A DNA stretch of 64,000 bases, taken from a bacterium MS4 (lineage in GTDB: Bacteria > Bacillota > Clostridia > Oscillospirales > Acutalibacteraceae). A model generated the notes under the pieces. That model saw only the letters and a list, made by a program, of their open reading frames with translations, was not told the origin of the DNA and ran no database searches. The translations under genes were made by a program, and so were the position numbers. The stretch lies in contig CCFG01000017.1 in assembly GCA_000752215.1 (NCBI GenBank), positions 744,001 through 808,000 on the forward strand. Direction: 5' to 3'. Positions 309 through 52,668 of the stretch are shown here, piece after piece (positions within the stretch are counted from its first letter, which is position 1; every line of letters starts with the position of its first letter).

Positions 309-861
309 CTGTTGATTCCTCCTTAATGAATTGGGTTTCTTCACTGAGGCAGTTTTTGATCCACTGTATCACTTCCGGTGAATTCAGCCTGACCTCATTT
401 CCTAACACCGCGCGCAGTTCGCGCGTATCAAGGGTAAATTCGCGGGAATCCATTCTGTGATGAAAGACAAAATCCCTGTCTTCGTTGCAGGTGATCAACA
501 GCAGTACCGTGGAATTGATGTCCCCGAGCGGAATCATATCCACATGGGATGGTACAAACGCCGCGGTGATTGTGGTCCCTACACCCTTTTGGGAAGCGAC
601 GCCGAAGCTTCCGCCCGTCATCTCGGCTTCCATCTTAAAGAGCGGCACTCCCATCCCGATTTTGCGGGTAGTGCGGGTGGTAAAAAACGGGTCCGTCACA
701 CGAGCCGCCTGTTCGGCGGTCATACCGGCACCGTCATCCGAAATCCGGATGGTCAATCTGTCGGCCCTCGATTCTTCACACACGTCGATCTCAATCAGCT
801 TCGCACCTGCGGAAATTGAATTCTGTGCAATATCCATCACATTTAAAGACAATTCACGCAT
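271..861 (-). CDS. HATPase-domain protein of the hydrogenase operon
   Basis: A 196-residue protein with a GHKL/HATPase fold: N-box near residues 8-20 (MDIAQNSISAGA), G1 box SDDGAGM near 41-47, and a GMGVPLFK G2-like box near 69-76. No His-kinase dimerisation domain, receiver domain or membrane segment is seen, so it is not a complete sensor kinase. The roughly 85 C-terminal residues have no motif I recognise. The ATG is 1 nt after the stop of the NuoE-like gene and the 3-prime end overlaps the ferredoxin gene, so it belongs to that operon. HATPase genes of this kind recur beside clostridial NADH-dependent hydrogenases; their biochemical role is not established, and a kinase or regulatory role is inference. 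Confidence 0.75.
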   Translation of the reverse strand: MRELSLNVMDIAQNSISAGAKLIEIDVCEESRADRLTIRISDDGAGMTAEQAARVTDPFFTTRTTRKIGMGVPLFKMEAEMTGGSFGVASQKGVGTTITAAFVPSHVDMIPLGDINSTVLLLITCNEDRDFVFHHRMDSREFTLDTRELRAVLGNEVRLNSPEVIQWIKNCLSEETQFIKEESTDEVFSGTSGDQG

Positions 862-862
862 C

Positions 863-1357
863 TTATTCGTATTTTGCCAGTACCTGTTCCACTTCCTCCG
901 GGGTCATGCGTCCGTAAACATCCCCGTTCACCGTCAGTACCGGAGCCAGGCCGCAGGCACCCACGCAGCGGCAGGCAGTCAGCGAAAATTTACCGTCCGG
1001 AGTGCACTCCTCCGGCTGGATACCCAAAACGGAGGTCAATTTGTCCAGCACCGCCGCCGCCCCCTTGACATAGCAGGCTGTTCCCAGGCAGATCGACACG
1101 TTGTATTTTCCTTTAGGGGTAAGCGAAAACTGGGAATAAAAGGTGGAAACGCCGTATACTTCTTCCAGCGGTACGCCCAGTCCCTCGGCAATGATGCTCT
1201 GCACCTCTGCCGGAAGGTAGCCGTAAACCTCCTGTGCTTCCTGCAGAACAGGCAGTATGGCGCCTCTTTGCTGCTTGTGCCTTTCGATGATTTCGTCGAG
1301 CTTTTCCCGCTGCTCGGCGGTTCCCTGGAAAGGCAAACTGCTGATACGTTTTTGCAT
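863..1357 (-). CDS. NuoE/HydC-like [2Fe-2S] subunit of an NADH-dependent hydrogenase complex
   Basis: A 164-residue member of the 24-kDa complex I subunit family. The thioredoxin-like [2Fe-2S] ligands are visible as Cys90/Cys95 (CLGTAC) and Cys131/Cys135 (CVGAC), and the family signature YGVSTFYSQF is near residue 68. In clostridial bifurcating [FeFe]-hydrogenases this small subunit passes electrons between the NADH-binding flavoprotein and the catalytic subunit in the cytoplasm. It is the first gene of its operon, with a strong AGGAGG before the ATG at 1357. It lies behind an extended -10 promoter and a Rex-like operator, so NADH/NAD+ control is likely. Family is certain; partnership with a hydrogenase rather than a formate dehydrogenase is inferred from the neighbours. 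Confidence 0.87.
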   Translation of the reverse strand: MQKRISSLPFQGTAEQREKLDEIIERHKQQRGAILPVLQEAQEVYGYLPAEVQSIIAEGLGVPLEEVYGVSTFYSQFSLTPKGKYNVSICLGTACYVKGAAAVLDKLTSVLGIQPEECTPDGKFSLTACRCVGACGLAPVLTVNGDVYGRMTPEEVEQVLAKYE

Positions 1358-1437
1358 TCTTGTTCCTCCTTGCGGTTAATCAACGCAGGAAAAATGTCGT
1401 GGCGGCAACAAAAGTTTCCTGCAATCCATTGTTTTTT

Positions 1438-1446
1438 AGTATAGCA
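1438..1446 (-). promoter_or_regulatory. Extended -10 promoter of the hydrogenase-type operon
   Basis: On the minus strand TGC-TATACT forms an extended -10 element, about 80 bp upstream of the NuoE-like start. No good -35 hexamer is present at 16-18 bp. A 17-bp imperfect palindrome (1454-1470, ATGATA arms) occupies that region, which suggests activator or repressor dependence. Confidence 0.55.
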
Positions 1447-1472
1447 TACACCCATGATAAAATCTATCATTT

Positions 1473-1490
1473 TTGTTAAATAAGTCACAA
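1473..1490 (-). promoter_or_regulatory. Rex-like redox operator
   Basis: The plus strand reads TTGTTAAATAAGTCACAA, i.e. TTGTGAC-TTAT-TTAACAA on the transcribed side. This matches the known Rex consensus TTGT(T/G)AA-N4-TT(A/C)ACAA at all but one position. It lies about 30 bp upstream of the -10 element. Rex is an NADH/NAD+-sensing repressor of hydrogenase, fermentation and related operons in Clostridia. The match is seen; the regulation is inferred. Confidence 0.65.
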
Positions 1491-1534
1491 AAAATTATTG
1501 GTAACTATGATAATTTTAAGTTAAAATTGAGCTG

Positions 1535-1571
1535 AAAAACAGCCGGGCACTTTTCGGTGCTTCCGGCTGTT
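1535..1571 (-). terminator. Intrinsic terminator after the PHP gene
   Basis: AACAGCCGG (1538-1546) pairs with CCGGCTGTT (1563-1571), with a nested GCAC/GTGC stem in between. The minus-strand transcript continues as TTTTT. The stem begins at the stop codon of the PHP gene and separates the sensory cluster from the hydrogenase operon. Confidence 0.75.
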
Positions 1572-35432: not shown

Positions 35433-36776
35433 TTATTTATCCTGAAGCGTCATGTCGGCGTAGGTACGGTAAGCGTCCTTCCCGCTGTTTTTCGCGGCGT
35501 ACATGGCCGCGTCGGCCTTCGCAAACAGCTCGTTGTAGTTTTTTCCGTCGTCCGGGTAAAACGCGACCCCTATGCTGCCGGAAACCCTGAGCTCCGCGTC
35601 GTCCTGAGGATGGGCGTTGCGGAAAATGGTCTGCAGCACATCGGCTTTCCGCCTGACATCCCTGCGGGAAATATCCATCAGGAACACCACAAACTCGTCC
35701 CCGCCGATCCTGCCGATAATATCGTCCTCGCGGAATTTCTTCTTGATTTTGGAAGCAATATCGACAATCACTTCGTCCCCTACCAGGTGACCCAGATTGT
35801 CGTTTACATTCTTAAAATTATCGATATCGATGGTAAACAGAGCGTGGCGGCTCCCCGGGGAGCTTTGGCCGATCGCCTTGTCAATCAGCGCGTTGGTGGT
35901 CATCCGGTTGTAAAGGCCGGTCAGCTGGTCGTGCTCCGCCTTCTCCTTTAAGCTGATCGTTTCCCGTTTCTGCCTGTCGATATCGGAAATAAAGGCGATC
36001 ATCCGGAGCGGCTCCTTCTGCTCGTCCCGGATCACCGTGCTGCGCACCCGGTACCACCGGTAATTGCCGTTGACATCCTTGAACCGGTACTCGGGGCTTC
36101 TGGGATTGCTCCCGTTTAAAAAATCGTAGATATCGTTGAGGATGCGCGACTTGTCGTCGTCGAAAATAATATCCGAATGGTAGAGCTGGTCCAGAAGGCC
36201 GTCCGCGTTCACCTCAATGCCGAATTTTTCTTTGAATGGGGGCGAGCAGTAAAGCTCCTGCGTCTTGAAATTATAGTCGCAGATCGGGTCGGCCGCCTGT
36301 TCCATGATGATACGGTAGCGTTCCTCGCTGGCGGCAAGCTCCCGCCTGGCTTTTTTGATGATTTCAAGCTGTTCCCTTTCCCGCTTGATGGAATGCCTTC
36401 TCTTGGTAATATCCTCCAATACGCCGCAAAAATACTCAGAACCATCCCCCGCCGTCATAAGACGCAAACAGCAGATGGTCCAGATATAGTCCCCGTCTTT
36501 CCGAACCAGTTTCAGTTCCAGCTCGGCAAGGCCGCGTTTTTTTAAGCTTTCGGCAAGTCTACCCCAGTTGATCCGCTGGTCGCTGCTCAGCAGCCGGTTC
36601 GGCACCGGCCCGTTCAGCGCGGTGATTTCCCCTTCATTGTACCCAAACATCCTGTAAAAGGAAGCGCTTGCGTAGATAATCGTCAGGACACCATCGTTCT
36701 TACAGCAGAAAACACCGCCGCCGAGGTAATTGGCTATGTTTTCTATACCGAGCGTACTCATTGCCGTTTGGGGCAT
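35433..36776 (-). CDS. PAS-PAS-GGDEF diguanylate cyclase
   Basis: A 447-residue soluble protein. A first PAS domain (about residues 10-125) is followed by a coiled linker (SIKREREQLEIIKKARREL), a second PAS domain with a PAC tail (YRFKDVNGNYRWYRVRSTVI), and a GGDEF domain (about 285-445). The GGDEF motif is intact (GRIGGDEFVVFL) and the inhibitory I-site RxxD (REDD) lies five residues before it, so it should make c-di-GMP and be feedback-inhibited. No membrane helix is seen. I prefer the ATG at 36776 (AGAAAGAAG upstream) over the GTG at 36803, which has no SD. What the PAS domains sense is unknown. Confidence 0.88.
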   Translation of the reverse strand: MPQTAMSTLGIENIANYLGGGVFCCKNDGVLTIIYASASFYRMFGYNEGEITALNGPVPNRLLSSDQRINWGRLAESLKKRGLAELELKLVRKDGDYIWTICCLRLMTAGDGSEYFCGVLEDITKRRHSIKREREQLEIIKKARRELAASEERYRIIMEQAADPICDYNFKTQELYCSPPFKEKFGIEVNADGLLDQLYHSDIIFDDDKSRILNDIYDFLNGSNPRSPEYRFKDVNGNYRWYRVRSTVIRDEQKEPLRMIAFISDIDRQKRETISLKEKAEHDQLTGLYNRMTTNALIDKAIGQSSPGSRHALFTIDIDNFKNVNDNLGHLVGDEVIVDIASKIKKKFREDDIIGRIGGDEFVVFLMDISRRDVRRKADVLQTIFRNAHPQDDAELRVSGSIGVAFYPDDGKNYNELFAKADAAMYAAKNSGKDAYRTYADMTLQDK

Positions 36777-36833
36777 CGGCGTCACTTCTTTCTGTAAAGA
36801 CACTTGCTGATTCTCAGGTTGATATACTTATTG

Positions 36834-36862: not shown

Positions 36863-36923
36863 GAAATTTCGGATGGATTTTCACGCTCTTTCTTCTTTAC
36901 GCCCAAATCCCCGCAATTTCATC

Positions 36924-36952
36924 TTGACACCGGCGGCATTCTGTATTATGAT
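36924..36952 (+). promoter_or_regulatory. Promoter of the aro operon leader
   Basis: TTGACA (36924-36929), a 17-bp spacer and TATGAT (36947-36952) form a near-consensus sigma-A promoter. It is about 255 bp before aroF and directs transcription of the leader peptide and attenuator. Confidence 0.8.
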
Positions 36953-36981
36953 ACGGAATAAGGTGAACGCAAAGGAGTTAC

Positions 36982-37104
36982 ATGATGAATTTGTCCGCAT
37001 ACACAACACGATTTACAGGTTTCGGTTATCCCCGCTATTTTATGGCGTGGGATTTTTGTGCATGCAGCAAAGTCAACTGTAAGCTTTTGTGTAAAAGGAT
37101 ATAG
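36982..37104 (+). CDS. Aromatic-rich leader peptide of the aro operon
   Basis: A 40-codon frame with a perfect AAAGGAG 4 nt before the first ATG. The first part is MMNLSAYTTRFTGFGYPRYF and then MAWDFCACSKVNCKLLCKRI. Tyr7, Phe11, Phe14, Tyr16, Tyr19, Phe20, Trp23 and Phe25 make eight aromatic residues in nineteen, far above chance. It is followed by an intrinsic terminator and then aroF. This is the layout of ribosome-mediated attenuation: stalling at Phe/Tyr/Trp codons when charged tRNA is scarce would let transcription pass. The four Cys at the C-terminal end are unusual for such a peptide. The frame and SD are seen; the mechanism is inferred. It overlaps no other credible gene. Confidence 0.65.
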   Translation: MMNLSAYTTRFTGFGYPRYFMAWDFCACSKVNCKLLCKRI

Positions 37105-37141
37105 CCGTATTTTATTGACTGTTAACGGGCTGATATTTTTG

Positions 37142-37172
37142 ACGGAGCTGACAGCAGCTCCGTTATTTTTTT
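37142..37172 (+). terminator. Attenuator terminator upstream of aroF
   Basis: ACGGAGCTG (37142-37150) pairs perfectly with CAGCTCCGT (37155-37163), and TATTTTTTT follows. It lies 38 bp before aroF and inside the transcribed leader. A GCCGT stretch at 37104-37108, overlapping the leader peptide stop codon, could pair with the 5-prime arm ACGG and act as an antiterminator strand; AGTCAA (37071-37076) and TTGACT (37115-37120) are another possible pair. Confidence 0.85.
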
Positions 37173-37209
37173 ACTCATTTTTACCGGCCCACATCAAAGG
37201 AGGAACATT

Positions 37210-38265
37210 ATGATTATCGTATTAAAACCCGAATGTACCCCGCAGCAGCTTTCAGAATTCACGGATTCGCTCACCAGGGAATACAGCGTGAAGGTCAACA
37301 CCTGGGTGGGAACGCAGAGCACCGTGCTTGGGCTGATCGGCGACACTTCCGCCATCGACATCGACTTCATTGCCGCGCAGGATTTCGTGGAAAGCGTAAA
37401 ACGGGTACAGGAGCCGTATAAAAAAGCAAACCGCAAGTTTCATCCGGACAACACGGTGATTACCCTGCCGACCGGCCAGACCATCGGCGACGGCGGGCTC
37501 GCGCTGATTGCCGGGCCGTGCTCGGTGGAAAACGAGGCCCAGATCTGCGGCGTGGCCGAACGGGTGAAAAAGGCGGGGGCGCAGTTCCTGCGCGGCGGCG
37601 CCTTCAAGCCCAGAACCTCCCCTTACGCCTTCCAGGGGCTGCGGGCCGAGGGACTGGAGCTTCTCAGGGAAGCGAAAAAGAAAACCGGCCTGCCGATCGT
37701 TACGGAGCTCATGAGCATTGGCCAGATCGACCTGTTTCTGAAGGAGAATGTGGATATCATCCAGGTCGGCGCGAGAAACATGCAGAATTTCGAGCTGCTG
37801 AAGGAGCTTGGAAAAATCAGAAGGCCCATCCTGCTCAAGCGCGGGCTTTCCAGCACGATCGAGGAGCTTCTGATGAGCGCCGAATACATTATGGCCGGCG
37901 GCAACGACAACGTGATCCTGTGCGAGCGCGGAATCCGGACCTACGAGACCTACACGCGCAACACCCTCGACATTTCCGCCATTCCGATTCTGAAAAAGCT
38001 CTCCCATCTGCCGGTGGTGGTCGACCCGAGCCACGCCTCCGGCATTGCCTGGCTGGTGGAGCCGCTGGCGCTCGCCGCGGTCGCGGCTGGGGCGGACGGA
38101 CTGATTATCGAGGTCCACAACAACCCCGCCAAGGCCCTGTCCGACGGCGCGCAGTCCCTGACGCCCGACCAGTTTGACAAGGTGGCGGCGCATGTGAAGG
38201 TCGCCGCGAAAGCTTTTGGAAGAAAAGTGGATTCCCCCGCCGATTTTTGCTATAATAAAGCTTAA
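37210..38265 (+). CDS. aroF: 3-deoxy-7-phosphoheptulonate (DAHP) synthase, type I-beta
   Basis: A 351-residue enzyme that joins phosphoenolpyruvate and erythrose-4-phosphate, the entry step to aromatic amino acids. The N-terminal ferredoxin-like regulatory domain (residues 1-70, MIIVLKPECTPQQLSEF) is the class found in Thermotoga and Bacillus-type enzymes. The TIM barrel shows AGPCSVENEAQ near 101, FLRGGAFKPRTSPYAFQG near 127, QVGARNMQNF near 189, LLKRGLSSTIEE near 214, and VDPSHASG near 275. The ATG has AAAGGAGG upstream. It is the first structural gene after the attenuator. Confidence 0.95.
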   Translation: MIIVLKPECTPQQLSEFTDSLTREYSVKVNTWVGTQSTVLGLIGDTSAIDIDFIAAQDFVESVKRVQEPYKKANRKFHPDNTVITLPTGQTIGDGGLALIAGPCSVENEAQICGVAERVKKAGAQFLRGGAFKPRTSPYAFQGLRAEGLELLREAKKKTGLPIVTELMSIGQIDLFLKENVDIIQVGARNMQNFELLKELGKIRRPILLKRGLSSTIEELLMSAEYIMAGGNDNVILCERGIRTYETYTRNTLDISAIPILKKLSHLPVVVDPSHASGIAWLVEPLALAAVAAGADGLIIEVHNNPAKALSDGAQSLTPDQFDKVAAHVKVAAKAFGRKVDSPADFCYNKA

Positions 38266-38292: not shown

Positions 38293-39129
38293 ATGAACAA
38301 GAAAATCGTGATCGTCGGCCTGGGCCTGATCGGCGGCTCGCTTGCGAAAGCCTTTCAGAAATACAGCGAATGCACCGTCGCCGGAATCGACCGGGACCCC
38401 GAAGTCCTGAAAGCCGCGCTGGGCTGCGGCGCGATCGACAAGGTCGGGGACGACGGGGACATCCGCGGCGCCGACCTGCTCTACCTTTGCCTGTACCCGC
38501 AGGCCGATATCGACTTTATCGCTTCGCACGCCCATCTGATTCCCGCGTCGTGCCTTGTCACCGACACCTGCGGCATCAAGTCGGAAATCTGCAGGCACCT
38601 CCCGCTTCTGGCGGAGAAGCACGGCTTTCCCTTCGTGGGGGGGCACCCCATGGCGGGCAAGGAACAGAGCGGCTTTGCGGCAAGCGACGCCGACCTTTTT
38701 CTGGACGCCAGCTATCTTATCGTTCCGTGCGGCGCGGCGCAGTCCGCTGTTGACATGCTCAAGGCGGTCGCCGTGGAGCTTCATTTCGGCGGCACGGTGG
38801 TCACCACGCCGGAGCACCACGACCAGATGATCGCGTTTACCAGCCAGCTTCCCCATGTGCTTGCCTGCGCCTATGTCATGAGCCCGCGGTGCCCGGAGCA
38901 CAACGGCTTTTCTGCCGGAAGCTACCGGGATGTTTCCCGTGTCGCGAATATCAACGAGCAGCTTTGGGCGGAGCTTTTCATCGACAACCGGAAGGCGCTT
39001 TCCGAGGAACTGGATACGCTCATCACGAATATCACCGATATCAAAGAGGCGGTCGCGAAAGGCGACGTCGAAGCCCTGCGCGCGCTTTTGCGCAAGGGCA
39101 GACTGATCAAGGAAAGGCTTGGTGAATAA
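38293..39129 (+). CDS. tyrA: Prephenate dehydrogenase
   Basis: A 278-residue NAD(P)-dependent enzyme of tyrosine synthesis: Rossmann motif IVGLGLIGGSLAKAF at residues 6-20, the catalytic His in VGGHPMAGKEQSGFAAS near 115-131, and HDQMIAFTSQLPHVLA near 177. There is no C-terminal ACT domain and no chorismate mutase domain. The stop codon overlaps the aroB ATG (TAATG). GGAGGGAAG stands before the ATG. Confidence 0.93.
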   Translation: MNKKIVIVGLGLIGGSLAKAFQKYSECTVAGIDRDPEVLKAALGCGAIDKVGDDGDIRGADLLYLCLYPQADIDFIASHAHLIPASCLVTDTCGIKSEICRHLPLLAEKHGFPFVGGHPMAGKEQSGFAASDADLFLDASYLIVPCGAAQSAVDMLKAVAVELHFGGTVVTTPEHHDQMIAFTSQLPHVLACAYVMSPRCPEHNGFSAGSYRDVSRVANINEQLWAELFIDNRKALSEELDTLITNITDIKEAVAKGDVEALRALLRKGRLIKERLGE

Positions 39130-40181
39130 TGGAACTGACGGTTCACACGTCCGGCGCCTACCGGATCATCATTGAGCGCGGCTGTATGGACGCGGCCGGC
39201 GCACGCGCCGGGGAGCTTTTCAATGCCGGCGCCAGAACGGTCGTCATCGGCGACAGCAACGTGCTCCCGCTGTACGGAAAGCGCGTGCTGGATTCTCTGG
39301 AAGCCGCGGGCTTTTCCGCTTCCCTGTTCTCTTTTCCGGCGGGCGAGGAGAGCAAGCGTCTTTCCTCCATTGAAGCCATGTACGCCGAGTGCGCGGCCCG
39401 GGGCCTTACCCGCAGCGACTTTATTGTCGCTCTCGGCGGCGGGGTAACGGGCGATATGGCGGGGTTCGCCGCGGCGACCTTTCTGCGCGGAATCCCGTTC
39501 ATCCAGATACCGACCACCCTTTTGGCGCAGATCGATTCCTCCGTCGGCGGAAAAACCGGCGTGGACCTGCCGCAGGGAAAAAATCTGGTTGGAGCGTTCC
39601 ACCAGCCCAGGCTGGTGCTGATTGACCCGGACACACTCTCCACGCTTCCCCCGCGGTACTTTTCCGACGGAATGGCGGAGGCGATCAAATACGGCTGCAT
39701 CAAAAGCCGGGTCCTGTTCGATATGATTGTCAGAGAAGAGATTTCTCAGAAGATAGAAGAACTGATTTTCCACTGTGTGGATATTAAGCGCGAGGTGGTC
39801 GAGCGGGACGAATTCGACACCGGCGAGCGCATGCTCCTGAACTTCGGCCACACCTTCGGCCACGCGCTGGAAAAGCTGTACGGCTTCAAGAAGCTTTCTC
39901 ACGGGGAAGCGGTCGGGATCGGCATGGTGATGATGGCAAAATGCGGCGAAAACGCGGGGATTACAAAGGCCGGAACGACCGATGAAATCATCGCCGCTCT
40001 GAAAAAATACAACCTGCCGGTAAAGGACGAAATGCCCGTAAACCGGATTTTGGAAGCTACCGCGCTGGATAAAAAGAGCAGCGGCGGCATGATCAGCCTG
40101 ATTATGCTCAGGGAAATCGGCGAAAGCTTTGTGGACCGCGTTTCCCGCGGCAGTCTTGCCGAGCTGACCGGGGTGCTGTGA
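39129..40181 (+). CDS. aroB: 3-dehydroquinate synthase
   Basis: A 350-residue enzyme that closes DAHP to 3-dehydroquinate with NAD+ and a metal ion. The cofactor and substrate loops are seen: GGGVTGDMAGFAAATFLRGIPFIQIPTTLLAQIDSSVGGKTGVD from about residue 104, EAIKYGCIK near 183, and the metal His in LLNFGHTFGHALEK near 238. It overlaps tyrA and aroA by 1-3 bp, so the genes are chained. Confidence 0.95.
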   Translation: MELTVHTSGAYRIIIERGCMDAAGARAGELFNAGARTVVIGDSNVLPLYGKRVLDSLEAAGFSASLFSFPAGEESKRLSSIEAMYAECAARGLTRSDFIVALGGGVTGDMAGFAAATFLRGIPFIQIPTTLLAQIDSSVGGKTGVDLPQGKNLVGAFHQPRLVLIDPDTLSTLPPRYFSDGMAEAIKYGCIKSRVLFDMIVREEISQKIEELIFHCVDIKREVVERDEFDTGERMLLNFGHTFGHALEKLYGFKKLSHGEAVGIGMVMMAKCGENAGITKAGTTDEIIAALKKYNLPVKDEMPVNRILEATALDKKSSGGMISLIMLREIGESFVDRVSRGSLAELTGVL

Positions 40182-41401
40182 TGGCAAATGTAACGATCTC
40201 CCCCTCCGTCCTGAGCGGAAGCATCCTCGTGCCCCCCTCCAAAAGCGCGGCGCACCGCGCGGCGATCTGCTCCGCGCTGGCGGGTGGAGCCCCTCTTTTT
40301 GACGGGGAAGCGATCAGCAACGACATTACGGCGACCTGCCGCGCTATGCGGGCGATCTGCGGCGGCGGGGACCCCGTGCGGATCGACTGCGGGGAATCCG
40401 GATCCACCCTGCGCTTTCTGATTCCCGTCGCGGCGGCGCTGGGGCTGAATGCGGAATTTACCGGCAGCGGGCGTCTGCCGGATCGGCCCATCGGCGTATA
40501 TCTGGACTGCCTGCCGCAGCACGGCGTTTCGTGCAAGACGCAGGGCGGACTTCCGCTTTCCGTCAGCGGGCGGATGACCCCGGGCCGGTTCGTGCTGCCG
40601 GGAAACGTCAGCTCCCAGTTCATTACGGGCCTTCTGCTCGCGCTTCCGCTTCTGGACGGCGACAGCGAGCTGATACTCTCCTCTCCGCTGGAAAGCGCGG
40701 GATACGTGGATATGACGGTCGAAATCATGCGCGAATACGGCGTAACGGCGGAGCCCACCGAAAACGGCTGGAACATTGCGGGACGCCAGAAATACCGCCC
40801 GTGCGAATACCGGGTGGAGCGGGACTGGTCGCAGGCGGCGTTCTTTCTCGCCGCGGGCGCTTTGGGCGGCAGCCTCCGTCTGGAGGGCCTGAACCGGGAT
40901 TCCTGTCAGGGCGACCGCGCGGCGGAGCGGCTCTTCCGGGAATTCGGCGCAAAGGCGGAGTGGCACGGTTCCGTTTTGTCCGTCTCGCCAAACGAGCTGA
41001 AGGGCATGGAAATCGACGCGTCCCAGATTCCCGACCTTGTGCCGGTTCTGGCGGCGACCGCCGCGCTCTGCCGCGGACGCACGCGGATTTACAACGCGCA
41101 GCGGCTGAGAATCAAGGAGAGCGACCGCCTTTTCGCCATGGCCGACGGGCTGACCAAGCTGGGCGGAAGGGTCGCGGAAACGGACGACGGGCTGATTATC
41201 GACGGCGTTCCGACGCTGCACGGCGGCAAAGCGGAGGGCTTTAACGACCACCGCATTGTGATGGCCCTTTCCGTTGCCGCGCTGAAAGCCGACGGCAGCG
41301 TCACAGTCACCGACGCGCAGAGCGTCCAGAAGAGCTATCCGGCCTTTTTTGAAGATTACAATCGGTTGGGAGGAAAAGCGAATGTCTTCCACATGGGGTG
41401 A
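40181..41401 (+). CDS. aroA: 3-phosphoshikimate 1-carboxyvinyltransferase (EPSP synthase)
   Basis: A 406-residue enzyme that adds phosphoenolpyruvate to shikimate-3-phosphate. The substrate Lys/Ser is in VPPSKSAAHRAA near residue 19, GESGSTLRFLIPVAAAL near 70, SQFITGLLLALPLL near 145, and RIKESDRLFAM near 308. The motif at the PEP site lacks the Gly-Asn-Ala-Gly-Thr of class I enzymes and has GESGST instead, so it is of the divergent class II-like type seen in Firmicutes. The start codon overlaps the aroB stop (TGATG). Slightly shorter than usual (about 430). Confidence 0.93.
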   Translation: MANVTISPSVLSGSILVPPSKSAAHRAAICSALAGGAPLFDGEAISNDITATCRAMRAICGGGDPVRIDCGESGSTLRFLIPVAAALGLNAEFTGSGRLPDRPIGVYLDCLPQHGVSCKTQGGLPLSVSGRMTPGRFVLPGNVSSQFITGLLLALPLLDGDSELILSSPLESAGYVDMTVEIMREYGVTAEPTENGWNIAGRQKYRPCEYRVERDWSQAAFFLAAGALGGSLRLEGLNRDSCQGDRAAERLFREFGAKAEWHGSVLSVSPNELKGMEIDASQIPDLVPVLAATAALCRGRTRIYNAQRLRIKESDRLFAMADGLTKLGGRVAETDDGLIIDGVPTLHGGKAEGFNDHRIVMALSVAALKADGSVTVTDAQSVQKSYPAFFEDYNRLGGKANVFHMG

Positions 41402-42479
41402 AACGGTAAAAATATCCATCTTCGGCGAAAGCCACGGAAAGGCGATCGGGGTGGTGCTGGACGGCCTGCCCGCCGGGGAAAAAATCGACCTCGACTCCGT
41501 AGCGCTGCAGATGAGCCGCCGCGCACCGGGCAGGGATTCCACGAGCACGCCGCGAAAGGAAAGCGACCTGCCGCAGATCGTCAGCGGGATGCTCAACGAC
41601 ACAACGACCGGCGCGCCGCTGTGCGCGCTGATTGAAAATACGAACACCCGGTCCGGGGACTACGACAACCTGAAGCTTGTCCCCCGTCCGGGACACGCGG
41701 ACTTCCCCGCGCACCTGCGTTACGGCGGATACAACGACGTGCGCGGCGGCGGGCATTTTTCCGGTCGGCTGACGGCCCCCCTCGTCTTTGCGGGCGCGGT
41801 GTGCCGCCAGATTTTGCAGCGCCGGGGCATTCTGATCGGCGCGCATGTTTTCTCGGTAAAGGACGTGACGGACGACCCGTTTGACCCTGTATATATTCCG
41901 GAGAATTTACTGGCTTCCTTATCCTCAGTTTATTTTCCCGTTATCAATGAAAATGCAAAACAGAAGATGAGGGATACCATCGAGGCCGCCCGGCTTGCCC
42001 AAAACAGCGTGGGCGGCGTGGTCGAATGCGCGGTGACCGGTCTTTCGGCGGGCGTCGGCGGCCCCCTGTTCGGGGGAATCGAGCCGGTGTTTTCCTCCAT
42101 CCTGTTCGGCATTCCGGCGGTCAAGGGCGTGGAGTTCGGCGCGGGCTTCGGCGCTTCGGCGCTTTTCGGCAGCGAAAACAACGACCCCTATTTCTGCGAC
42201 GGCGGCACGGTGAAAACAAAAACCAACCACGCGGGCGGAATCCTGGGCGGGATTTCCACCGGGATGCCGGTTCTTTTCCGCGCGGCGTTCAAGCCGACAC
42301 CCTCGATTTCGCTGGAACAGGACAGCGTGGACCTGACCGCAAAAGAGAACACAAAGCTCAGCGTACACGGGCGGCACGACCCCTGCATTGTTCCGCGCGC
42401 GGTCCCCGTGGTGGAAGCCGCGGCGGCAGTTGCGCTGATGAACCTGATCAATCTGCATACCGGAGGAATGAAAGCATGA
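41382..42479 (+). CDS. aroC: Chorismate synthase
   Basis: A 365-residue FMN-dependent enzyme that forms chorismate. Signatures: IFGESHGKAIGVVLDGLPAG near residue 12, RRAPGRDSTSTPRKESD near 46, RPGHADFPAHLRYGGYNDVRGGGHFSGRLTA near 104 (split here), and HDPCIVPRAVPVVEAAAA near the end. The ATG at 41382 has GGGAGG 8 nt upstream; an in-frame ATG at 41349 has none. It overlaps the aroA end by 20 bp, and its stop codon overlaps the pheA start (ATGA). Confidence 0.95.
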   Translation: MSSTWGETVKISIFGESHGKAIGVVLDGLPAGEKIDLDSVALQMSRRAPGRDSTSTPRKESDLPQIVSGMLNDTTTGAPLCALIENTNTRSGDYDNLKLVPRPGHADFPAHLRYGGYNDVRGGGHFSGRLTAPLVFAGAVCRQILQRRGILIGAHVFSVKDVTDDPFDPVYIPENLLASLSSVYFPVINENAKQKMRDTIEAARLAQNSVGGVVECAVTGLSAGVGGPLFGGIEPVFSSILFGIPAVKGVEFGAGFGASALFGSENNDPYFCDGGTVKTKTNHAGGILGGISTGMPVLFRAAFKPTPSISLEQDSVDLTAKENTKLSVHGRHDPCIVPRAVPVVEAAAAVALMNLINLHTGGMKA

Positions 42480-43600
42480 CCCTTGAAGAAATCAGACAGG
42501 AAATAGACCGGATCGATAAGGAGCTTCTTCCGCTGTTCGTCCGTCGCATGGACTGCGCGAAGCAGGTCGCCGCCGTCAAACAGGAGCAGAAGCTTCCGGT
42601 GTTCAACGGCGGGCGCGAGCAGGAAATTCTGGACCGCATCGTTCGTCAGGCCGGGGAATACGGCGGCGAAGCACGGCTCCTTTATTCCGGCATGATGGAT
42701 ATGAGCCGGGCGCTGCAGTACAACCTGCTCGGCGGGGGCGGAGAACTGCGGGAAACCATCCGCCAAGCCGGCGCCGCGCCGGAAAAGGCGGAAAAGATCG
42801 CCTGCCTTGGGGAAAACGGTTCCTTTTCCCACGAGGCGCTCAGCCTGCTGTACCCCAAAGCGGCTCCCCAGTTTTATCAGGGCTTCGGCGGGATTTTCTC
42901 GGCCGTCGCCAACGGGCAGGCGGACCTGGGAATCCTCCCGGTGGAAAACTCCTCCGCCGGTTCGGTCAGCGAGGTTTACGACCTCATTCTGAAATACCGG
43001 TTCTGTATTGTCAACGCGGCGACTCTGCACGTTCACCACTGTCTGGCGGCGGCCAAAAAAGTGGACGTCCGCACCATCGGCACGGTGTACTCCCACCCGC
43101 AGGCGCTGTCCCAGTGCTCGGAGTATATCACCAGAAACGATCTGCGCCCCCTGCCGTGCTCCAACACGGCCTCGGCCGCACAGATGGTCGCACAGCGGCA
43201 AGAGGCCGGGATCGCCGCCATCTGCTCCGAGCACGCGGCGAACGAATACAAGCTGCACATTCTGGAAAGGGATATCCAGAACAGCTCCAACAACTGTACG
43301 CGGTTTATCGTCATCAGCCGCAGCCTGTTTATCCCGGACCGCGCCCGGAAAATCAGCCTGTGCTTTTCGCTTCTCCACAAAACCGGCACGCTTTACAGTG
43401 TGCTCGCGCGCTTTGCAGCGCTCGGGCTGAACCTGACAAAAATAGAGAGCCGCCCGATTCAGGATAAAAATTTTGAATACGATTTTTATCTTGATTTTAC
43501 CGGCAATGTGCGGGAGGACGCGACGCTGAATCTGATCTGTTCGCTTTACGACGAGCTTCCCCGTTTCTCCTTTTTGGGAAACTACACGGAAAATGAATAA
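42476..43600 (+). CDS. pheA: Bifunctional chorismate mutase / prephenate dehydratase
   Basis: A 374-residue P-protein for phenylalanine synthesis. Residues 1 to about 85 are an AroQ chorismate mutase (EEIRQEIDRIDKELLPLFVRRM), about 105-280 the dehydratase (CLGENGSFSHEAL, ILPVENSSAGSVSEVYDL, and NNCTRFIVI containing the TRF motif), and the end an ACT domain (LLHKTGTLYSVLARFAALGLNLTKIESRP) for Phe feedback. The ATG at 42476 has GGAGG upstream and overlaps the aroC stop codon. It is the last gene of the aro operon, ahead of a strong terminator. Confidence 0.95.
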   Translation: MTLEEIRQEIDRIDKELLPLFVRRMDCAKQVAAVKQEQKLPVFNGGREQEILDRIVRQAGEYGGEARLLYSGMMDMSRALQYNLLGGGGELRETIRQAGAAPEKAEKIACLGENGSFSHEALSLLYPKAAPQFYQGFGGIFSAVANGQADLGILPVENSSAGSVSEVYDLILKYRFCIVNAATLHVHHCLAAAKKVDVRTIGTVYSHPQALSQCSEYITRNDLRPLPCSNTASAAQMVAQRQEAGIAAICSEHAANEYKLHILERDIQNSSNNCTRFIVISRSLFIPDRARKISLCFSLLHKTGTLYSVLARFAALGLNLTKIESRPIQDKNFEYDFYLDFTGNVREDATLNLICSLYDELPRFSFLGNYTENE

Positions 43601-50694: not shown

Positions 50695-52365
50695 TCACAT
50701 TTCAAGAATCGGATTTTCCACGGAGCCGCCCGCCGGTACCATGGGCAGCACATTGACGTCCGGATTGATATGGCAGTTGATCAGGACCGGTTCCCGCAGG
50801 GCGAGCGCCTGCTTCAGCACCGGTTCGATTTCGCTTCTGCGGCTGATGGTAAACGCCTTCACGCCGAACGCCTGCGCCAGCATTTCATAATTGGTGGTCC
50901 TGTCCAGCGTTGTCTGTGAAAAGCGGCTGCCGTAGAAAAGCTTTTGCCACTGGCGCACCATACCGAGCACCTGATTGTTGAAGACCAGCTCGATCACCGG
51001 GATATTGTACTGCGCTGCGGTGGAAAGCTCGTTGCAGTTCATATGGAAGCTTCCGTCGCCCGCGATGTTGACGACGTGTTTGTCGGGGTTTGCGACCTGC
51101 GCGCCGATCGCCGCGCCCAGGCCGAAGCCCATGGTCCCCAGCCCGCCGGAGCTGACGAAGTGCCGGGGGGTGCGGAACCGGTAGAACTGCGCCGTCCACA
51201 TCTGGTGCTGGCCGACCTCGGTAACGAGGATCGCTTCGGAATCTGTCAGGCGGTCAAGGGTTTCCAGCACCTCCTGCGGAAGGACCTCTTCCTCGGACGT
51301 GCTTTCCTGCACCAGCGGATACAGCGCTTGCCACTCCGCAATTTCTTCCATCCAGAGCTTGTGCTGGTGCTGGGGAAGCATTCCGTTGAGGTGCGCCAGA
51401 ATTTCTCTGGCGTCTCCCTTCATCTTCAAATCCACATCGATATTCTTGTTGAATTCCGCCGTATCGATCTCGATCTGGATAATCGGGCAGTGCCGCGCAA
51501 ACAGGTTCGGGTTGCACAGCACGCGGTCGGAAAAGCGTGTTCCCACGGCAATCAGCAGGTCGCAGTTTTTAATGGCAAGGGCCGCCGTGTTCGTCCCGTG
51601 CATGCCCAGCATCCCGATATAGCGCGGGTCGGTCTGGTCATAGCCGCCCTGACACATCAATGAAGAGGAAACGGGCGCGTCGAGAAGCTCCGCAAATTTT
51701 TTCAGCTCCCCGTAGGCTTCCGCGGCAATGACCCCGCCGCCCGTATAAATAAACGGCTTTTCGCTCGTGCGGAGCATCTCCAAAGCCTGCTCGAAGCGCT
51801 CCGCCCAGGGGAAGTCTCCCCTGGGCGCCGGAAGCGGCGGCTGCGGCGTATATTCATATTTCTGCGCCGTTACGTCCTTTGGAATATCTACAAGCACCGG
51901 CCCTTTCCGTCCCGTACCGGCAATCAGAAACGCTTTGCGGATCGTATCGGCCAGATCCTCGATATTTTTCACCAGATAATTATGTTTGGTGACCGGCATG
52001 GTGATACCGGTGATATCCACTTCCTGAAAGCTGTCCAGCCCCAGAAGGTCGCAGCTTACGTTGCCGGTAATCGCGACCATCGGGACCGAATCCATATAAG
52101 CGGTGGCGATCCCGGTGACAAGGTTGGTCGCGCCCGGGCCGGACGTTGCGATGCAGACCCCTGTTTTCCCGGTCGACCGTGCGTAACCGTCCGCCGCGTG
52201 GGCCGCGCCCTGCTCGTGGGCGGTGCGGATATGGCTGATCTTATTCCTGTACTCGTAAAGCGCGTCGTAAATATTCAGCACCGCCCCGCCCGGATAGCCG
52301 AAAACCGTATCCACACCCTGCTCCAGCAGACATTCCATAATGATCTGCGCCCCTGTTAACTGCAT
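50695..52365 (-). CDS. ilvB: Acetolactate synthase large (catalytic) subunit
   Basis: A 556-residue ThDP enzyme that joins two pyruvates (or pyruvate and 2-oxobutyrate). Seen are FGYPGGAVLNIYDAL near residue 22, the catalytic Glu51 in HEQGAAHAADGYAR, the FAD-region FQEVDITGITMPVTKHNY near 113, and the ThDP/Mg motif GDGSFHMNCNELSTAAQYNIPVIELVFNN near 430. AGGAGG precedes the ATG. It is the first gene after the T-box leader. Confidence 0.95.
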   Translation of the reverse strand: MQLTGAQIIMECLLEQGVDTVFGYPGGAVLNIYDALYEYRNKISHIRTAHEQGAAHAADGYARSTGKTGVCIATSGPGATNLVTGIATAYMDSVPMVAITGNVSCDLLGLDSFQEVDITGITMPVTKHNYLVKNIEDLADTIRKAFLIAGTGRKGPVLVDIPKDVTAQKYEYTPQPPLPAPRGDFPWAERFEQALEMLRTSEKPFIYTGGGVIAAEAYGELKKFAELLDAPVSSSLMCQGGYDQTDPRYIGMLGMHGTNTAALAIKNCDLLIAVGTRFSDRVLCNPNLFARHCPIIQIEIDTAEFNKNIDVDLKMKGDAREILAHLNGMLPQHQHKLWMEEIAEWQALYPLVQESTSEEEVLPQEVLETLDRLTDSEAILVTEVGQHQMWTAQFYRFRTPRHFVSSGGLGTMGFGLGAAIGAQVANPDKHVVNIAGDGSFHMNCNELSTAAQYNIPVIELVFNNQVLGMVRQWQKLFYGSRFSQTTLDRTTNYEMLAQAFGVKAFTISRRSEIEPVLKQALALREPVLINCHINPDVNVLPMVPAGGSVENPILEM

Positions 52366-52399: not shown

Positions 52400-52668
52400 T
52401 AAAATAAAAAAGCCTTCGCCTCTTCATAGAGGCGAAGACTTAACTTCGCGGTACCACTCTAAATTCGCCGGAGAACCGGCATCTCAGCATGCATCAAACA
52501 ATGCACTCCCCTGTAACGGTGGGACACCGGGCGTACTTACTTAGCGACTGTTCAGCTGCCTGCTCCGGGGTGATATCCTGCATTCACCGCACCGTCTTTC
52601 ACCTGCCGACGGCTCTCTGTGAGCGGAAAGGATGCATTCTGTCCCCATCTGCGCATTTTTGTTATTAG
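52400..52668 (-). ncRNA. T-box leader, probable isoleucine specifier
   Basis: A tRNA-sensing leader upstream of ilvB. The conserved T-box core AGAGTGGTACCGCG is at 52447-52460 (minus strand). The terminator stem is CTTCGCCTC/GAGGCGAAG (52414-52437) with a T-rich tail, and upstream is a long Stem I. The specifier loop likely reads AUC (52572-52574) within GGATATCACC, i.e. isoleucine, which fits the genes. Uncharged tRNA-Ile would stabilise the antiterminator and raise ilv expression. The T-box is certain; the specifier is my reading. Confidence 0.9.

Follow-up and report, generated by a model that had tools for sequence, protein, structure and literature searches.

A candidate ribosome-mediated attenuator with Phe and Tyr codons upstream of the aroF operon in Clostridia

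Introduction

T-boxes are the expected regulatory device in Clostridia. In the pheL/pheA and trpL/trp systems of enterobacteria, the leader peptide contains many residues of the amino acid under control, and antiterminator and terminator are alternative structures. The window analysed here, a 64,000-nucleotide stretch of the genome of bacterium MS4 (Acutalibacteraceae, Oscillospirales; contig CCFG01000017.1, positions 744,001 to 808,000), carries a short frame rich in aromatic codons and a terminator upstream of an aro operon. Is this leader a classical attenuator, and if so, which amino acids does it read? The original prediction, made from the window alone, answered that it is one and that its peptide reads all three aromatic amino acids. 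Comparison of related leaders supports a classical attenuator before the aro operon, and we put the probability that the aroF leader is a ribosome-mediated transcription attenuator reading the charging of Phe- and Tyr-tRNA at roughly four in five. If true, classical attenuation would turn from an exception among Firmicutes into a common control of the aromatic entry enzyme in Clostridia.

Organisation of the leader and the aro operon

The aroF leader sits between a minus-strand PAS-GGDEF gene (35433-36803) and aroF, and its features and those of the operon are on the plus strand. A sigma-A type promoter (TTGACA-17-TATGAT, 36924-36952) matches 11 of the 12 consensus letters, and close relatives have similar sequence. 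The Shine-Dalgarno sequence AAAGGAG (36971-36977) precedes two ATGs, at 36982 and 36985, at the start of the leader frame. The frame had originally been given 40 codons by counting from the first ATG; the frame itself stands, but close relatives retain only the second ATG. A 39-residue peptide (MNLSAYTTRFTGFGYPRYFMAWDFCACSKVNCKLLCKRI) is therefore likely, encoded by 36985-37104 including the TAG stop (37102-37104). Its eight aromatic residues, Y6, F10, F13, Y15, Y18, F19, W22 and F24, are those first described. The cluster of their codons spans 37000-37056, with Phe and Tyr as the proposed control codons.

Several RNA elements share the frame with the peptide. CGATTT, encoding Arg-Phe, is at 37009-37014, and segment 1 (TTACAG, 37013-37018) is complementary to CTGTAA in segment 2. 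The hairpin P1 (37028-37053, with arms at 37028-37037 and 37043-37053) is followed by a U-run. Segment 2, CTGTAAGCT (37077-37085), is the putative 5' half of an antiterminator, and segment 2b, CCGT (37105-37108), stands directly 3' of the stop codon. The partner of both is segment 3, ACGGAGCTGACAG (37142-37154), which comprises the 5' arm and loop of the intrinsic terminator hairpin, ACGGAGCTG-ACAG-CAGCTCCGT (37142-37163). A U-run at 37166-37172 completes the terminator. Promoter, AAAGGAG and terminator hairpin with U-run had all been correctly recognised from the window alone. The window leader RNA folds with z = -4.2, equalled by none of 200 shuffles. The minimum free energy structure calculated for the window leader RNA by itself involves different parts of the 5' half in its pairs, and it was set aside as a working structure.

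A second Shine-Dalgarno sequence (37197-37203) precedes aroF, encoding DAHP synthase (37210-38265, ATG at 37210). Then follow tyrA (prephenate dehydrogenase, 38293-39129), aroB (39129-40181), aroA (EPSP synthase, 40178-41401), aroC (chorismate synthase, 41349-42479 from the listed ORF start, the true start probably being a little 3' of 41349) and pheA (chorismate mutase-prephenate dehydratase, 42479-43600). Pfam assignments bear out the six-gene order first proposed. The operon includes tyrA and pheA and is without any trp gene. The codon cluster before aroF-tyrA...pheA is for the operon's own amino acids, Phe and Tyr, as is expected of an attenuator.

Conservation of the leader frame

Related leaders were collected by several searches. 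Searching with DNA gave matches in 10 of 30 genomes, the window's own included, all of the same genus; with the peptide as query, 37 genomes matched among 200 of the family at E <= 0.1. A profile of 22 peptides matched 98 of 398 genomes at E <= 0.05, 48 of them below 1e-4; the weak tail of these matches is probably chance. A profile search of the order sample gave matches in 38 of 295 at E <= 0.05, mostly weak. A DNA pattern found 32 matches in named genomes, including Caproiciproducens, Clostridium sporosphaeroides, Faecalispora, Caproicibacter and Anaeromassilibacillus; three of the 32, in Pseudoalteromonas, Patescibacteria and Thermoflexus, are in unrelated phyla and were taken as chance. 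Fifty-seven distinct segments 5' of aroF were read. A leader is present in 54 and none was recognised within 450 bases in three (L038, L080 and L094), a ratio that is not a prevalence because the loci were picked by likeness to the leader. The related leaders come from many genera. Thinning to less than 92% likeness removed seven near-identical leaders and left 47. A further 21 loci without aroF, mostly weak matches, were left out, though L062, located at the edge of a contig, matches the profile strongly (3.1e-14).

The alignment suggested as a check of the original prediction finds the frame, the choice of Phe or Tyr and the terminator hairpin conserved in relatives. A short leader frame with its Shine-Dalgarno sequence, as an attenuator would have, is kept and is predicted to be translated. 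All 47 leaders have frame 0 open from its first codon through the motif, against 13 and 26 for frames +1 and +2, the leaders having been picked partly by frame 0. Four aromatic columns of the alignment hold 187 residues, of which 171 are F, Y or W. Exchange between Phe and Tyr, a T-A transversion, is common at these columns, and Ser, a transition from Phe, appears three times. The 20-codon motif holds 202 Phe, 120 Tyr and 38 Trp in 940 codons. Codon differences (9512, 11313 and 11371) show no excess at the third position, as might be anticipated where RNA structure limits change in the same letters. One-base deletions occur in L006 and L039, either within the motif or 3' of it. The deletion at L039 (within 1061-1240) is in the P1 loop and shifts the frame after the first aromatic codons; it may be real or a sequencing error.

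Whether Trp is read as well can be judged from one column. W22 is present in the window peptide, Trp is retained at its column in 28 of the 47 family leaders, and single Trp codons occur in some other leaders (e.g. L194, L199, L208 and L209). In the remaining 19 family leaders, however, the column is non-aromatic, with Arg, Asp, Gln, Gly, Thr or Ala, and the Trp codon falls in the 3' arm of the P1 stem. Only 2 of 19 leaders from other families in the order contain Trp, one codon each, and trpE has a T-box match of its own in the same genome. The claim that the peptide reads all three aromatic amino acids is not supported for Trp by this comparison: the Trp codon is probably incidental, and a trivalent attenuator is unlikely. 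The Cys-rich tail of the peptide had been suggested as a separate sensor. The same stretch serves as RNA segment 2. Its residues vary, the exception being a single Cys column conserved in 37 of the 47 leaders. Read as peptide, the tail is what segment 2 encodes, and it needs no sensor role.

The Arg-Phe pair is encoded almost invariably. CGA is the rarest Arg codon in 13 genes of the window (4 of 275) yet stands in 46 of the 47 leaders, with TTT after it in all 47, and the hexamer poses a concrete question on codon-level timing. In-frame CGATTT is present in only three of the 19 order leaders (L137, L139 and L149), and inspection of the leaders by eye found no conserved complement of it. TnaC is a precedent for an arrest peptide sensing a free aromatic amino acid, and the strong conservation of the Arg-Phe, Pro and Cys positions in the family type could point to a nascent peptide that arrests the ribosome by its sequence, sensing free aromatic amino acid and not tRNA charging. 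The Arg-Phe position overlaps the invariant hexamer, however, and the Pro position overlaps the P1 stem. Peptides of other families are mainly Phe/Tyr runs, often plain ones such as EYFYFYFYFYF and TAEYYYFYFYF, with little else in common, and we regard such an arrest peptide as very improbable.

Conserved RNA pairings

Applied to the 47 diverse rows, RNAalifold recovered only the terminator and three P1 pairs, so the pairings were tested by permuted duplexes and by counts on named structures. A terminator is found 3' of the frame in all 54 leaders (53 by script, one by eye), where an attenuator requires it, and in the set of 47 a double change is seen at 9 of its 11 pairs. P1 shows clear covariation, with 27 double-changed cells against 8.9 in shuffles (0/500 as high), and 88.1% of its cells are paired compared with 13-53% when it is slid. 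Cognate duplexes paired better than permuted ones, with z-scores of -11.0 for P1, -3.8 for segment 1:2 and -4.8 for segment 2:3. In a thinned set of 22, the energy of 1:2 was reached by 240 of 10000 permutations and that of P1 by none.

For the antiterminator, the original prediction named GCCGT at the stop codon and ACGG in the terminator arm. That pairing is found but forms the minor half; the main half is CTGTAAGCT (37077-37085) with AGCTGACAG (37146-37154). The proposed antiterminator is accordingly written as 37077-37085 with 37146-37154, extended by 37105-37108 with 37142-37145, and its covariation is moderate. There are 18 double-changed cells against 10.7 in shuffles (3/500 as high), and the covariation score was matched by 5/500. 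Paired cells make up 62.3%, a value reached by 27/500 shuffles, with one slid control at 54.1%. The other two of five measures do not exceed shuffles (250/500 and 54/500). In the distant leader L087 both partners differ yet still pair, as GCTCATGCACG with CGTGCCATGAG.

Segment 1:2 has 76.6% of its cells paired and keeps its complementarity. It shows no covariation beyond shuffles, and its cognate pairing beats the row mean in only 26 of 47 leaders, which makes the freeing of the terminator the weakest step of the proposed mechanism. Taken over related leaders, comparison supports the frame with its Phe/Tyr choice, P1 and the terminator, and moderately supports the antiterminator.

As P1 and CGATTT are conserved as nucleotides and a U-rich RNA could yield Phe codons, the leader might also be a riboswitch, a T-box or a protein-bound RNA in which the frame is incidental. 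No Rfam family matches over its cut-off at the leader, the best being L20_leader with 18.7 of 58.7 bits, and RF00230 (T-box) gives no match in 36900-37260. The exchange of F and Y, and the recurrence of Phe/Tyr clusters in leaders with different RNA sequence, also speak against an RNA element with an incidental frame, to which we assign only a few per cent.

Proposed mechanism and folding calculations

We propose that the aroF leader works as a classical attenuator in the following way (the start site, stalling, co-transcriptional timing, termination and pause are what we infer). RNA polymerase would start near 36959, and a ribosome would begin on the leader. When Phe- or Tyr-tRNA is scarce, the ribosome would stall within 37000-37056, covering segment 1 and P1. 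Segment 2 could then pair with the terminator 5' arm and loop, so that no terminator would form and the operon would be transcribed. When both tRNAs are ample, the ribosome would run on, first covering segment 2 and later moving past it. Once masked, or refolded with segment 1, segment 2 would leave the terminator to form, and transcription would stop before aroF. P1 may be an RNA polymerase pause hairpin that lets the ribosome catch up.

Folds of the RNA present just before the terminator 3' arm is made were calculated codon by codon, leaving out bases covered or already passed by the ribosome. These are equilibrium folds, not kinetics, and the ribosome is assumed to reach 15 bases from the A site. 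Averaged over the 47 leaders, the hold on the terminator 5' arm stays near 0.75 until the ribosome reaches the last aromatic codon, falls to 0.31 eight codons on, and returns to 0.5 thirteen codons past the cluster. In the window it is 0.85 with a stalled ribosome, 0.20 in free RNA and 0.56 with a ribosome parked at the stop codon. Because of the values of 0.56 at the stop in the window and 0.5 in the family, the stop position alone does not account for termination. In the 19 order leaders the modelled hold drops from 0.82, with the ribosome six codons ahead of the last aromatic codon, to 0.67 on that codon and 0.37 six codons beyond it. The hold is lower after the cluster than within it in 18 of these 19, the exception being L156, where it is higher. 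In the computation, an antiterminator that excludes the terminator can thus form on stalling in the cluster, a pairing for which covariation is moderate.

Most of this switching pattern is lost when the spacers are shuffled. With a stalled ribosome the hold is 0.741 for natural against 0.649 for shuffled spacers in the 47 family leaders, and 0.816 against 0.585 in the 19 order leaders; natural values exceed the shuffle mean in 36 of 47 and 17 of 19, respectively. The direction is reversed in free RNA (0.561 against 0.676) and with the ribosome past the cluster (0.408 against 0.585), natural values being not above the shuffle mean in 33 of 47 leaders without a ribosome and in 36 of 47 with the ribosome past the cluster. 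The 5' arm is held more firmly by a leader's own segment 2 than by one swapped in: of 10000 permutations 1 did as well, and in the thinned set of 22 the number was 172 of 10000. With segment 2 swapped in from other species, the hold on the 5' arm is still 0.67.

Relation to known leaders

The aroF leader would follow the same logic as pheL/pheA and trpL/trp; it differs in its proposed reading of both Phe and Tyr, in its common-pathway operon, in sequence and in lineage. Among Firmicutes, leader-peptide attenuation of the Staphylococcus aureus ilv-leu operon has been reported with reporter and mutant evidence (PMC5794164); that system concerns Leu (and Ile) and another operon. Predicted His leader peptides are described for hisS/hisZ in Bacillales, where T-boxes are usual (PMC2965389), and his attenuators have been predicted in Firmicutes (PMC9413887); both differ from the aroF leader in their amino acid, His.

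A parallel at aroF itself is uORFC-13-1, a predicted leader described in terms of Phe from 24 sequences, only of Acholeplasma and unknown environmental organisms (PMC8632094). It has a uORF with at least one Phe codon, a possible promoter, an RBS and a terminator, and its authors suggest attenuation (PMC8632094). By that published description, it resembles the Clostridia leader in its Phe-containing uORF, its terminator and its location exclusively 5' of aroF (PMC8632094), and the Clostridia leader differs in its clusters of both Phe and Tyr, a defined antiterminator, the in-frame hairpin and CGATTT. Two uORF candidates at shikimate genes, which encode Phe and Tyr according to one published figure (PMC6429828 Fig. 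6b), may or may not be related to the aroF leader. As leader-peptide attenuators of Firmicutes and uORFC-13-1 of Acholeplasma are known, the type of leader is already described. In the literature searched we found no description of a Phe/Tyr aroF attenuator in Oscillospirales or Clostridia, or of its exchange with a T-box, though an earlier mention is possible (Lopatovskaya et al. 2010, cited in PMC4833913). What appears to be new, judged from sequence, is a widespread Phe/Tyr leader at aroF of Clostridia.

Distribution before aroF and T-boxes

The spread of such leaders was assessed by a census that required at least 7 F/Y/W in 18 codons together with a terminator. In the family sample, which overlaps with the set of 54 leaders, 21 of 28 scorable aroF loci pass; the order sample gives 18 of 27 and the class sample 15 of 27, the latter including two near-identical pairs. 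These rates are biased because the loci are the best-matching aroF genes of each search. Any aroF match was found in 38 of 60 family, 41 of 59 order and 58 of 79 class genomes. L197 was not scorable. L162 passes the frame and terminator score but is a T-box and was excluded from the count, and L181 was counted as a miss, its known leader (as L025) starting outside the census's 300 bases.

Among 103 background genes, each with a clear gap 5' of it, none passes the census; aroF in the background's own records passes in 11 of 15, most of these records having been fetched for the leader motif. The background figure bears on the simplest alternative, a neighbouring transcript's terminator beside a small frame arisen by chance. 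Intergenic terminators are common, but the nearest 5' gene in the window, encoding the PAS-GGDEF protein, is on the opposite strand, and the joint occurrence of leader and terminator in 54 leaders, like the 0/103, contradicts chance. We give this alternative practically no weight.

T-boxes occupy the same position at other aroF genes. In the order and class samples, 21 loci did not pass or were set aside, and eight of them have a T-box, over the cut-off before aroF at L157, L158, L159, L160, L162, L233 and L234 and just under it at L221. Scans of the other loci, excluding L179-L184, L206, L210, L211, L218 and L227, found no T-box beside aroF. The window's own genome has 13 T-box matches, five over the family cut-off; those at tyrS and pheS are over it, and trpE is just under with 92.2 of 93 bits. 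With matches at these genes among the 13, leader attenuation and T-boxes would coexist in one genome. This bears on the remark in the original prediction that Firmicutes mostly use T-boxes. To our knowledge, a single T-box does not report two tRNAs, and one leader peptide can. A two-tRNA readout would suit an operon that supplies both Phe and Tyr, and the either/or with T-boxes at aroF makes an exchange of regulators directly testable.

A broader reading would make the leader an ancient, class-wide attenuator of Clostridia that combines Phe and Tyr charging in controlling the first committed step, with exchange against T-boxes in the course of evolution, the family version adding the in-frame pause hairpin and the invariant rare CGA before a Phe codon as a ribosome timer. 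We offer it tentatively, as a doubtful extension of the Phe/Tyr attenuator.

Some further observations concern individual loci. The window holds a T-box on the minus strand (52425-52660), 5' of an acetolactate synthase (ilvB-like) ORF (50695-52365) and about 15 kb from the leader, and an S10-Clostridia ribosomal protein leader (RF03136; 27115-27195, minus strand, 54.3 bits). A second aroF paralogue in the same genome (L177, 2636-3652, minus strand) is 50% identical and lies 3' of an apparent 5S rRNA gene; no leader was seen at it. L082 (G297:C1) and L081 (G139:C2) each carry two copies of the leader, separated by about 3 kb on the same contig, and at L082 each leader copy precedes an aroF copy. 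At L080, a leader and terminator (1380-1570, minus strand) are parted from aroF by an opposite-strand ORF (450-1331, plus strand), the start of which resembles an HTH regulator, and the attenuator there looks orphaned.
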